From: Sebaldella termitidis ATCC 33386
Lineage (GTDB): Bacteria > Fusobacteriota > Fusobacteriia > Fusobacteriales > Leptotrichiaceae
Direction of reading: 5' to 3'
Assembly: GCF_000024405.1 (NCBI RefSeq)
Contig: NC_013517.1
Span: 3,441,989-3,505,988 of the forward strand
DNA length: 64,000 bases
This document shows positions 53,610 through 58,711 of this stretch, one piece after another. The position numbers and the translations under genes are program-made. Below the pieces are notes generated by a model. That model saw nothing but the letters and a program-made list of their open reading frames with translations, made no database searches and was not told the origin of the DNA. Every line of letters starts with the position of its first letter. The first letter of the stretch is position 1.

Positions 53610-54941
<1,332 letters not shown>

Positions 54942-55015: not shown

Positions 55016-56590
55016 TTATTCTTTTATCAGCTCTTCAAAACGTTCTCTTACCTGCGGCACTGATAATCCGACCACTATCTGAAAAGCCTTTCCGTTTCTT
55101 ACCACACCGTGAGCCCCGCCTTCCCTGAAAGCAGCATCCGGCTTTACCACAGTTTCGTCATTTACGCTTATTCTCAGCCTTGTAGCACAATTATTTACTT
55201 CCTGAATATTCTCTTTTCCGCCGAGAGCATCAAGAAATATCATTGCCTGATCCATAAATGCATCTTTGGTGTTAAGGTCACCTTTTTTGGCTTTATAGTC
55301 TGCCTTTGAGTATAGTTTTACTTCCGCATTCTCCTCTTCTTCACGTCCCGGTGTAGCGATATTAAATTTTAGTATGAGAAACCGGAATACAAAAAAGTAA
55401 ATTACAGTAAAGATCAGCCCGATAATTATTTGTGCAAATACAGTTCCTGAATGATTCTTAAACAGCGGTATCCAGTTCTGCGTCATTATTTCTATGAGTC
55501 CGCCTCCCATATTTCCCACTACCCCAAAGGCATACATTATAGTTGCCATTGTAGCTGCAAGCACAGCATGCACTGCAAATAATGCCGGTGCTATAAATAT
55601 AAATGTAAATTCAAGAGGTTCTGTAATACCTGCTACTATTGCAGTTAAGGTTGCCGACACCAGAAGACCGAGAACCATTTTTTTCTTTTCAGGTTTGGCT
55701 GTTACATATATTGCAGCCGCTATCCCCGGAACACCAAATATTTTAGAATTTCCATGAAGAGCAAATCCGCCTTGCGGAAACAGATTTTTTAACGGCTCTG
55801 TCGATGCAGCAAATTCCGGAAGATGTTCAGCCCAGTATTTTGCTATACCGCCCTCCACCACTGCAGGACCAAATATAAACGGACCGTATATAAAGTGATG
55901 AAGACCTGTAGGAATAAGAATTCTTTCCAAAAATGTATAAAGCCATACGCCCAGCAGCTGCGAAGATACTAAAAATCCCTGCATCGAAGCTATCAGATTC
56001 TGAATTACCGGCCATACAAACGCCGTAACCAAGGCACACGGTATCATGGCAAAAAATGCTATTATTACCACAAATGACGAGCCCTGAAATATCCCGAGAA
56101 AATCAGGAAGCTTAGTGTCAAAATATCTGTTGTGTATGCCTATTATAATAGCTGATATTGCTATAGCACCTACTATACTTGTATCAAGTGTTTTTATCCC
56201 GGCTATATCAGTAAGACCGCTAATACCCCCTATTTCCTGAGTCATGTCTACGCCAAACCGTCCGCCCCATATAGTAAGTATTGCATTTAGAAAATAATTA
56301 AATGTAAGATATGATACTAATGTTTCCAAACATGCTCTTGCATGTGCCTTTTTTGCCAATCCTATCGGCAGCCCTACTGCAAATAACAGCGGCATCTGCC
56401 TGAAGACTGTCCATCCTCCTTCTTCCACCACCTGAAATATTTTGTACCACATATGGTCGGGAGTTGCCAGATTTCCAAATATATCCGGATTTTTGAATAA
56501 TATTGTAAGTCCTACAACCATACCGGCAAACGCAAACAGCATTACCGGCGTAAACATTGCTCCTCCAAATCTCTGTACTTGTTTTAACAT
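55016..56590 (-). CDS. malX: PTS alpha-glucoside EIICB
   Basis: The 524-residue protein has an N-terminal EIIC with about ten helices (GGAMFTPVMLFAFAGMVVGL, TGLHHFIYGPFIFGP) and a C-terminal EIIB with the phosphorylated Cys in NNCATRLRISV. It resembles the MalX/GlvC subfamily for alpha-glucosides. There is no EIIA domain, so a separate EIIA-Glc is needed. AGAGGTGG precedes ATG 56590. It precedes malH by 77 bases. Confidence 0.92.
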   Translation of the reverse strand: MLKQVQRFGGAMFTPVMLFAFAGMVVGLTILFKNPDIFGNLATPDHMWYKIFQVVEEGGWTVFRQMPLLFAVGLPIGLAKKAHARACLETLVSYLTFNYFLNAILTIWGGRFGVDMTQEIGGISGLTDIAGIKTLDTSIVGAIAISAIIIGIHNRYFDTKLPDFLGIFQGSSFVVIIAFFAMIPCALVTAFVWPVIQNLIASMQGFLVSSQLLGVWLYTFLERILIPTGLHHFIYGPFIFGPAVVEGGIAKYWAEHLPEFAASTEPLKNLFPQGGFALHGNSKIFGVPGIAAAIYVTAKPEKKKMVLGLLVSATLTAIVAGITEPLEFTFIFIAPALFAVHAVLAATMATIMYAFGVVGNMGGGLIEIMTQNWIPLFKNHSGTVFAQIIIGLIFTVIYFFVFRFLILKFNIATPGREEEENAEVKLYSKADYKAKKGDLNTKDAFMDQAMIFLDALGGKENIQEVNNCATRLRISVNDETVVKPDAAFREGGAHGVVRNGKAFQIVVGLSVPQVRERFEELIKE

Positions 56591-56692
56591 TCTACCACCT
56601 CTAAAAAAATTTATTATATTATTTTAAAATTAACAAATATATATTTTTATAGTTAATTATTAAATTTTACCGAGTTGACTTTTTCCAATTTT

Positions 56693-56721
56693 AGTCTACC
56701 TTTATTTTATTATTCTGTCAA
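56693..56721 (-). promoter_or_regulatory. Promoter of the malX-malH operon
   Basis: Minus-strand TTGACA (56716-56721) and TAGACT (56693-56698) with 17-bp spacing, about 100 bases upstream of malX. Confidence 0.7.
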
Positions 56722-56816
56722 TATCAAAAGATGAATTTTAATTTAATAACTTCAAATAAATATTATTTTTAAATTTATAATAAAAAAATAAAAAATAAAT
56801 CATAGAAAAAATAATT

Positions 56817-56858
56817 TACGAATTTATTTTTGTTTTTGTTCGTAGAAAATGTTATAAT
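56817..56858 (+). promoter_or_regulatory. Promoter of the Rep-like gene with overlapping palindrome
   Basis: TTGTTT (56830-56835) and TATAAT (56853-56858) have 17-bp spacing. TACGAA at 56817-56822 and its complement TTCGTA at 56839-56844 flank the -35, so a repressor, possibly the Rep-like protein itself, could bind there. Confidence 0.55.
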
Positions 56859-56941
56859 TAATAAAAAATATATTTTCGCATATTTTTTTTATAGAAAATA
56901 ATAATAAAAAATTTCGTTTTTCTTTTACTGGTGAGGTGTAT

Positions 56942-58123
56942 ATGGAAGCAATTTTAGAAAATATTTTTGAAAAAAATTTTGAAAATTTTATTGTAAATAT
57001 AGATTTAGATCGAAATTTTTCCAAAAATGAAAAGAAATTTTTGGAGATTTTGTACTTTAATTTTGATTCTGATTCATTATATTTATTTTTTGATACGGAA
57101 AATCTGAAAAAAGCGCTTAATTACAAAGATGATTCCCAAATCCCCGTATTCTTTGAGAAACTAATGTCAAAGAAGATCAGATATACTATTTCCGAAAATG
57201 ATGATATTCTTTATTCAGGATTCTTTTCCATAATAAATTCATATTTTCACGGAAATAATAAAACAGGAATTTCTGTATCACAGGAATTAAAAATGTCTTT
57301 CAGGGAAAATAATTTTTTCTCCTGTTATAATTTTGAGAAATATATATTTATGGAGGAACCCGCTTCGCTGAAGTTATATGAATATATTAACTCTACTGCA
57401 CCAAGAGACTTTTTATCATTATCACTGACTGAGCTGAAAGATATTCTCGGATTGAAAGATGCTTATGTCAGATTTTTTGATTTTGAAAAATACATACTAA
57501 AAAAAATAATAAAAGATATCAATCTGTTTTCTGATATAAAAATAGAATATCAGAGACACAAGTCATCTAATACCCTGATCAACTTCTTTTTTACAAAAAA
57601 TGAGAACAGTATATATAATACAAGCTATAATCTTGCAAAAAAGATAATGAAGTCATTGAAAAATAAAATAGATGATCCGAAATTTATAACCAGTCTTATT
57701 TCCGGTTATATAATAAAAAAAGGGTATGATTATGTCTGTGTTAATGCATCTTTTGCCGATACCGTAAAGGATGACGGAAATTTTGATTACCTGCTGAAAA
57801 AAGCATTAATGTATGATTCCGCAGAATTTGAAAAAAATAAAAGAGAAAATTTCGTATTGTTTTTTGAAAAATATGAATTATATAAAAACTCACTGGTCTT
57901 ATATAATGATCTGTACAAATATCTGAATAAAATTCTCTATGTTACACCCCTTCTTGAAGAGCTCTATTCGCTTGATATTGTTACAGCCATAAGAAATCTC
58001 CGGGATAATGAAATTTTTGAATATAAAAACTCTGATTTAAAAATTATCATCCGGTACTATCTGAATAAAAAAAGCCTTGTCCAGTTATTTTTTAAAGAAA
58101 AGCTTATAAGCTCTTCTGTTTGA
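56942..58123 (+). CDS. Rep_3-like initiator family protein, chromosomal
   Basis: The protein has 393 residues. Its middle resembles the second winged helix of Rep_3/RepB plasmid initiators: SLSLTELKDILGLKDAYVRF, FDFEKYILKKIIKDIN, then DIKIEYQRHKSSNTLINFFF. The preceding part (SVSQELKMSFRE; KYIFMEEPASLKLYEYIN) fits the first. An unrelated C-terminal 150 residues is helical and Lys-rich. GAGGTG precedes ATG 56942. No partition genes, iterons or plasmid backbone are visible. It could be a domesticated initiator or a regulator. Confidence 0.6.
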   Translation: MEAILENIFEKNFENFIVNIDLDRNFSKNEKKFLEILYFNFDSDSLYLFFDTENLKKALNYKDDSQIPVFFEKLMSKKIRYTISENDDILYSGFFSIINSYFHGNNKTGISVSQELKMSFRENNFFSCYNFEKYIFMEEPASLKLYEYINSTAPRDFLSLSLTELKDILGLKDAYVRFFDFEKYILKKIIKDINLFSDIKIEYQRHKSSNTLINFFFTKNENSIYNTSYNLAKKIMKSLKNKIDDPKFITSLISGYIIKKGYDYVCVNASFADTVKDDGNFDYLLKKALMYDSAEFEKNKRENFVLFFEKYELYKNSLVLYNDLYKYLNKILYVTPLLEELYSLDIVTAIRNLRDNEIFEYKNSDLKIIIRYYLNKKSLVQLFFKEKLISSSV

Positions 58124-58165
58124 TCCTTTTTTGAAATACTGCACCTGAAAATAAATTCTTTACCT

Positions 58166-58215
58166 AGTATGGTGACAAGTTCACAAGCAGCGGACTTGTT
58201 ACCATACTCATTTTT
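58166..58215 (+). terminator. Strong hairpin after the Rep-like gene
   Basis: AGTATGGTGACAAGT pairs with ACTTGTTACCATACT (15 bp, one G-U) around a 13-base loop, followed by CATTTTTAT. Confidence 0.75.
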
Positions 58216-58218
58216 ATA

Positions 58219-58260
58219 TGCTGTGATTTTATATTAATATTTTCCGGTAAAATCACAGCA
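58219..58260 (-). terminator. Hairpin after the PNPOx-family gene
   Basis: TGCTGTGATTTTA/TAAAATCACAGCA, perfect 13-bp stem with a 16-base loop, just past the stop of the convergent minus-strand gene. Confidence 0.65.
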
Positions 58261-58273
58261 CCCTTTATAACAA

Positions 58274-58711
58274 TTATAATTTCCCGGTTATTTCCTGCCA
58301 GTCTACAAAAAGATTATATTTTTCAGTCTTAAATTCAAGAACACAGTATTCAGGATCTTCCGGTCCGCTGAAATGATGCTTTAATCCTTCATACCACATT
58401 TCTTTTTTTACTTTTGGATCTGTTATTATCTCTATTGTCCCTGTTAAAGTTATGTTATATTCAAGGCTGGAAAAACATATACCCGCACGATTGCATTTTC
58501 TGACTCTTTCTGCTTTATTGCTGCTAAGTCCGGTACACATGCTTATTTTTTCAATACCTTCAGCCTGTGCCGGCGTTATTGCCGAAGCTGTCGGGTATCC
58601 CTCCAGATCAATAAGAGCAAGTACACAATACGGTTCTGACCCTTCGGCTGCATTTTTACCGGTATGTGTCTGAATGATTTTACCGGCTTTTTCAATTATC
58701 TCTTTACTCAT
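58274..58711 (-). CDS. Pyridoxamine 5'-phosphate oxidase-family protein
   Basis: The 145-residue protein has the split-barrel flavin-binding fold: PYCVLALIDLEGYPTASAI, KAERVRKCNRAGICFSS and VTLTGT-like NITLTGTIEII. Members bind FMN or F420 and reduce diverse substrates; true PNPOx activity is not implied at this length. GAGGAGG selects ATG 58711 rather than ATG 58726. Confidence 0.82.
   Translation of the reverse strand: MSKEIIEKAGKIIQTHTGKNAAEGSEPYCVLALIDLEGYPTASAITPAQAEGIEKISMCTGLSSNKAERVRKCNRAGICFSSLEYNITLTGTIEIITDPKVKKEMWYEGLKHHFSGPEDPEYCVLEFKTEKYNLFVDWQEITGKL

Follow-up and report, generated by a model that had tools for sequence, protein, structure and literature searches.

A chromosomal Rep_3-derived gene of Sebaldella termitidis and its Fusobacteriota relatives: candidate regulators of divergent sugar-uptake operons

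The locus and its predicted promoters and operators

The stretch of the Sebaldella termitidis ATCC 33386 genome analyzed here (the window) is 64,000 nt long. It includes an open reading frame, confirmed at 56942–58123 on the forward strand, for a 393-aa protein that will be called the regulator. The best start is the ATG at 56942, behind GGTGAGG; the mechanically called GTG start is at 56936. The gene faces a divergent PTS operon, whose EIIC-EIIB permease gene (55016–56590, reverse strand; Pfam PTS_EIIC 3.6e-65, PTS_EIIB 1.3e-13) is the presumed target; by resemblance, its substrate class is taken to be alpha-glucosides. The second gene of the operon (53610–54938, reverse strand) is an open reading frame named by sequence resemblance: without a domain scan, its product is taken to be a 6-phospho-alpha-glucosidase-like Family 4 glycosidase.

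The divergent PTS gene has a predicted promoter, TTGACA-17-TAGACT, at 56693–56721 on the reverse strand, in a block that is conserved across three genomes from this genus. The regulator's own promoter has an extended −10 element (TGTTATAAT, TG-extended) at 56850–56858 on the forward strand, conserved in the same number of genomes; its start site is inferred. A first-pass annotation, made without database searches, had described a promoter with a palindrome, and this held: predicted operator 1, at 56818–56843, is an ACGAA-N16-TTCGT inverted repeat with half-site starts 21 bp apart. Given the inferred start site, it would span about −47 to −22 of the regulator's promoter, of which autorepression is the natural reading. 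An inverted repeat in this position is as expected of autoregulated Rep dimers; binding itself is inferred. A predicted operator 2 half-site, TTCGT, is at 56913–56917 on the forward strand, 74 bp, or seven turns, from an operator 1 half-site. The arrangement ACGAA-N15–17-TTCGT is found at only five places in the 4.49-Mb genome, four of them beside genes of the family described below.

The features expected of a plasmid replicon were sought around the gene. An iteron array is absent: there are only two two-copy direct repeats (82–86%) in 56585–56945, and none in 58115–58290. Nor are there ParA, toxin-antitoxin or other plasmid genes beside the gene, which is on a 4.42-Mb contig among metabolic neighbors. 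Its GC content is 0.266, vs. 0.337 for the window.

Between the convergent ends of the regulator and the next gene there are two strong inverted repeats, at 58166–58208 (15-nt arms, 93%) and 58219–58260 (13-nt arms, 100%); these are terminator-like, but were not reported by a terminator scan.

The protein

Pfam, profile, AlphaFold2 and Foldseek results divide the protein into two winged helices, WH1 (residues ~16–138) and WH2 (~140–220), and a tail (224–393). The tandem arrangement is of the RepE type. By sequence, Pfam Rep3_C (WH2) matches residues 161–217 (E = 1.9e-9) and is found in all 77 relatives; the PHROGs family phrog_4402, “replication initiation protein,” matches residues 73–224 (E = 1e-10); and a 77-relative profile aligns with RepE, the plasmid F initiator, across WH1 as well as WH2 (E = 8e-10). 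A match to NCBIfam repM_Acin (E = 3.5e-9) is far under its cut-off (36 of 250 bits). Pfam gave no Rep3_N (WH1) match in the 393-aa protein, and only one in the 77 relatives (E = 0.01). Despite this, the predicted fold of the WH1 part does match RepE: the AlphaFold2 model (mean pLDDT 83.6) has RepE structures as its best matches, with RctB weaker, and is matched by Foldseek to the RepE dimer–operator complex 2z9o with E = 1.2e-6 (structural alignment Z 12.6, rmsd 7.6, 178 aligned). The double winged-helix fold is thus a computed result and not an inference. In the first-pass annotation, a Rep_3-type winged-helix segment and an extra 150-residue tail were claimed, a Rep_3 profile search was proposed as a check, and a structure prediction without Rep-type winged helices was named as a refutation. 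Both claims held, the tail being some 170 residues long; the profile search matched Rep3_C but not Rep3_N, and the refutation failed, winged helices being predicted.

The tail (57602–58120, forward strand) consists of a helical part followed by a b-a-a-a-b-b-b part. Its putative function as a sensor is inferred. Ser378 is nearly invariant; there is no conserved His or Cys, the highest His column being 31% of the 77 relatives. The tail is without a match to any known domain in the searches run: Foldseek against the PDB and BFVD gave nothing under E = 0.001, sequences of solved structures nothing under E = 0.3, and 72,556 plasmid records nothing for the tail alone, and no consistent Pfam family was found among the 77 tails. 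The best VIA-align row (Z 5.4, rmsd 2.7, 54 aligned) is to an unrelated chain. Roadblock-, longin- and PAS-like rows in its second half are weak and not significant, and no fold was assigned.

Several other candidates were set aside. A Pfam Beta_helix hit on the protein (E = 0.019, under its cut-off), MMM1 hits in two of the 77 relatives, and a PRD hit in one of the 77 tails (E = 0.028) were taken as chance. The idea that the PTS phosphorylates a conserved His was rejected, there being no such residue.

Three near-identical 448-aa Rep_3 genes (L207, L208, L214) were found within ~12 kb of one 297-kb contig of another genome (G095, contig C2); the tail profile matches these faintly, with domain E-values of 2e-5 to 4e-5 against a whole-protein E of ~1.

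Orthologs and paralogs

The regulator gene is open and full length at the same chromosomal place in three genomes of the genus. The two orthologs (L046 and L047; 90% and 69% identity), a search for which the first-pass annotation had also proposed, face the same alpha-glucoside-type PTS operon, without plasmid remnants. Its second possible refutation, presence in one strain only next to such remnants, therefore failed as well.

The Sebaldella genome has ten family genes, all on the large contig (the tenth, L199, at C1:722288) and none on the two smaller contigs; the 54-kb contig bears an ordinary Rep_3 gene of its own. All ten face a sugar-transport operon, nine of them PTS and one (L043) an SFCGS/PRD operon. 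The partners are alpha-glucoside (in the window), glucose-type, glucitol, cellobiose with a 6-phospho-beta-glucosidase, mannose-family PTS, a DgaE-like enzyme with a mannose-family PTS, ascorbate/galactitol-type, fructose-type with an alpha-mannosidase, EIIC (L199), and SFCGS/PRD. These neighborhoods were assigned by reading, with operon types confirmed by Pfam on representatives and substrates named by resemblance. There are 44 PTS_EIIC loci in the 4.49 Mb, so PTS neighbors are not everywhere. The gene had been described as sitting alone between metabolic genes; “alone” did not hold, since it faces a PTS operon and has nine paralogs.

These observations bear on the reading that the gene was left behind by an integrated plasmid, as a Rep gene that now does nothing in the cell. 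In its favor are the Rep_3 fold and Pfam hit, the low GC content, and a relative's public annotation, “replication initiation protein.” Against it are the full-length gene at the same place in three genomes; a clade free of plasmid Reps (below); the absence of ParA, toxin-antitoxin genes and iterons, unlike plasmid-type genes; and ten copies all beside sugar operons. It can be regarded as practically ruled out, and a plasmid-borne replicon was rejected along with it. With a Rep_3 fold but neither iterons nor plasmid genes, the protein is not classed as an initiator.

Distribution and neighbors in the Fusobacteriota

A search with the regulator itself found matches in 51 of 98 Fusobacteriota genomes; the profile at E = 1e-5 found them in 61, some of the matches being plasmid-type Reps. 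The surroundings of 124 matches were read, one of 125 having been dropped as the second piece of a broken gene (G007). Seven of these are at contig edges and two have no divergent gene (L152, L158), while 115 have one within 700 bp. The divergent neighbor is a PTS operon in 102 of the 115: 92 by the first gene, and ten by the operon, with a DUF7916, DgaE-like or porin gene first, one of these by orthology where the contig ends. The remainder are nine SFCGS/PRD operons, three ABC transporters and one transposase-like gene. (ABC, porin, transposase-like and beta-glucoside [L147] neighbors were named by reading, not by Pfam.) As controls, a PTS gene is the first downstream gene in seven of 119 cases, and is found in one of the 91 remaining divergent gene pairs at these loci, a comparison biased by the PTS genes already having been taken. 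Many different PTS families are partnered. The near-universal divergent PTS neighbor is accordingly a count, not an inference.

A later set consisted of 18 members found only by the profile and unused in its building, three at contig ends and 15 readable. A PTS gene is among the first three divergent genes in 13 of the 15; the exceptions are L193, with only a phospho-beta-glucosidase-like gene, and L202, a clade member without a divergent gene. By comparison, none of nine plasmid-type Rep_3 genes of the same phylum has a PTS neighbor (one, L210, has no readable upstream region); where readable, their neighbors are ParA, toxin-antitoxin-like and nuclease genes and the like. A relative on a Cetobacterium somerae megaplasmid (L174:6827–8059, WP_330112116.1), annotated “replication initiation protein,” faces a mannose-family PTS operon.

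An outside-phylum scan with the pattern RFYDFEKx[IV] found 14 relatives, 12 of them fusobacterial by title. The other two (Thermosipho and Clostridiaceae) are ordinary Reps of ~315 aa, one adjoining a ParA gene and the other among genes not resembling sugar transport. The pattern is narrow, so absence of the family elsewhere is not shown.

Two further observations concern the partner operons. The SFCGS/DUF4311/PRD operon, whose function is unknown, faces a family member at nine loci (L043, L091, L100, L104, L107, L109, L110, L129, L136); the repeated pairing points to a role in sugar uptake for this operon as well. At L087 (G007), a broken regulator copy with internal stops lies beside an intact-looking divergent operon.

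Phylogeny

A tree of the winged-helix region was made by a quick method with 79 rows, kept from 147 proteins of at least 270 aa after near-copies were dropped. The PTS-linked proteins form one clade in it (66 rows, SH-aLRT 97), so that the single clade too is computed; the regulator is inside it. Outside it are RepM-type, Aureibacter, Megaera and fusobacterial plasmid Reps. Of the three matches that lack a transporter neighbor, L152 and L157 are also outside, and L158, a fragment, was too short to be placed. The position of the long row L207 is uncertain. Members of 278–311 residues, without a tail, are found both near the base of the clade and nested inside it, so the tail was probably lost in more than one branch; since short members do without it, it is not essential for the family.

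A conserved half-site and its spacing

Of the 115 intergenic regions, 52 were dropped for sharing a 22-mer with a kept one, leaving 63 non-redundant regions. Besides ribosome-binding sites and the −35 box, the words enriched in these are forms of AGACGAAA/TTTCGTCT. GACGAA is found in 40 of the 63, compared with 3.7 expected on shuffles and with six of 215 intergenic regions taken from the same loci as controls. As an ACGAA/TTCGT inverted repeat with starts 20–22 bp apart there are 17 instances, 12 of them at 21 bp. Half-site and inverted repeat are in this sense shown; that they are operators is a prediction. On the regulator side, TTCGT is within 10 bases of TATAAT in nine of the 63 (0.66 expected). 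On the PTS side, TTCGT is 15–18 or 26–28 bp from GTCAA, which is the PTS −35 box on the other strand; GTCAA and TTCGT at about these fixed distances are found in 33 of 63 regions, where 0.12 would be expected. For PTS −35 boxes anchored in this way, the −10 box is most often at 17 nt. This anchoring is also a computed result.

In a set of ten later, non-overlapping regions (four of 14 dropped for sharing a 22-mer), ACGAAAA is in seven of ten (1.29 expected) and AGACGAAA in three (0.18 expected). GACGAA is in only three (0.66 expected), which is a point against.

The spacings of paired TTCGT sites 40–115 bp apart cluster near 52, 74, 84, and 94 bp. For a 10.5-bp period they give R = 0.586, which none of 20,000 random sets reached. 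When each of the 25 protein clusters contributes a single value, R is 0.618 (p = 7e-5), the peak again being at 10.5. The phasing itself is shown; what it may serve is discussed below.

At three loci (L077, L081, L082), both core elements of the regulator's promoter, −35 and −10, lie between the arms of the operator (ACGATTTACA...TTCGTGTATAAT). This is the clearest layout for autorepression, as far as can be inferred from sequence alone.

In the window, the PTS −35 box is ~100 bp from the inverted repeat, with no half-site at the usual 15–18 or 26–28 bp. Control of this PTS operon is therefore inferred from the family rather than seen in its promoter, and would be less direct than in the 33 of 63 regions.

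A second alternative is that the gene is self-contained and autoregulated and its PTS neighbor incidental, its role being replication control like that of RctB, or iteron binding that blocks incoming plasmids. The window operators, on the gene's own promoter and not at the PTS −35, are in its favor, as is a weak structural match to RctB (Z 5.8, rmsd 5.4, 176 aligned). Against it, 33 of 63 regions have the half-site at set distances from the PTS −35, many PTS families are partnered, and a downstream PTS gene is found in only seven of 119 cases. It is considered very improbable.

Within the regulator reading there is a closer competitor, a pure repressor of the PTS operon, acting through a loop between phased operators with release by an inducer, and not an activator. 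The 10.5-bp phasing of paired sites would suit this, Rep_3 proteins are known autorepressors, and the PTS promoters have good −35 boxes and 17-nt spacers. The PTS-side half-site is mostly upstream of the −35 box, however, and not over the start, and this makes pure repression slightly the weaker choice.

Proposed function

The best reading of the gene, and very probably the right one, although no experiment has been done, is as a transcription regulator derived from a domesticated Rep_3 initiator, controlling the divergent PTS alpha-glucoside operon and its own gene. It would belong to a Fusobacteriota family in which each paralog is paired with a different sugar operon. Two possibilities had been put forward in the first-pass annotation: a plasmid gene since domesticated, or a Fusobacterial family whose chromosomal function lies in replication or in regulation. 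Each is supported, and of the two functions the evidence picks regulation because of the single clade apart from plasmid Reps, the recurrent type of divergent operon, and the conserved operator.

As a mechanism, a dimer may bind the inverted repeat in the manner of RepE on its own operator; this is inferred by analogy. The site over its own promoter would give autorepression. The second, helically phased site may allow cooperative looping, in which a pair of dimers sharing one helical face would hold a loop between the divergent promoters; two-site looping is itself inferred, and is considered probable. The tail would act as the sensor for a sugar or sugar phosphate, and then release or re-set the complex or otherwise switch binding. 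As to the effect at the PTS promoter, activation is slightly favored over repression, by a narrow margin, because the half-site is usually just upstream of a good −35 box. The core half-site is apparently common to the ten paralogs of one cell, and how cross-talk would be avoided is unexplained.

A bolder reading joins these points into one claim: that the phylum made a class of sugar regulators from one captured Rep_3 initiator, with up to ten paralogs per genome, each with its own sugar system; that Rep operator binding and “handcuffing” became helically phased looping between two divergent promoters; and that a new C-terminal sugar-sensing domain was added, and lost in some branches. Taken jointly, this could as easily prove wrong as right.

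Databases would name the gene a plasmid replication initiator; it looks instead like a member of a family of sugar-operon switches. If this is true, a regulator and an operator are predicted for scores of Fusobacteriota sugar operons, the annotation “replication initiation protein” (for example, of WP_330112116.1) should be corrected, and a plasmid initiator became a transcription factor family by steps that the sequences still record: absence of iterons, acquisition of a tail, multiplication, and new operon pairing.

Comparison with known systems

PTS operons with neighboring regulators are known, of PRD/antiterminator, LevR, MtlR, GntR, RpiR, and LacI types. Like these, the regulator is encoded beside the PTS operon it would control; unlike them, it has none of their domains by Pfam in its 393 aa, and no conserved His such as PRDs have. 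Autoregulation by Rep_3 proteins is likewise already known. In the literature searched (open-licence PMC papers only), there was no report of chromosomal Rep_3 proteins as PTS regulators, and such a family was not found in print.

Among Rep proteins, the nearest annotated plasmid hits outside the phylum are RepM-type Rep_3 proteins of Acinetobacter, Moraxella and Psychrobacter plasmids, with 23–40% of the query covered; these differ in being on plasmids and outside the PTS-linked clade, and the plasmid records hold no match to the tail alone. RctB of Vibrio chromosome II shares a Rep-like double winged helix and is an initiator kept by a chromosome; it drives replication, whereas there is no such sign for the regulator. 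The closest likeness is to RepE of plasmid F (2z9o), which as a dimer occupies inverted repeats lying between promoter and coding region of repE and so curbs its own synthesis (PMC13028717). Both winged helices, the profile and fold matches, and dimer sites as inverted repeats beside the gene's own promoter are common to the two. RepE, however, starts replication at iterons, while the regulator, without an iteron array and with an added tail, is chromosomal, multicopy, and paired with PTS operons.
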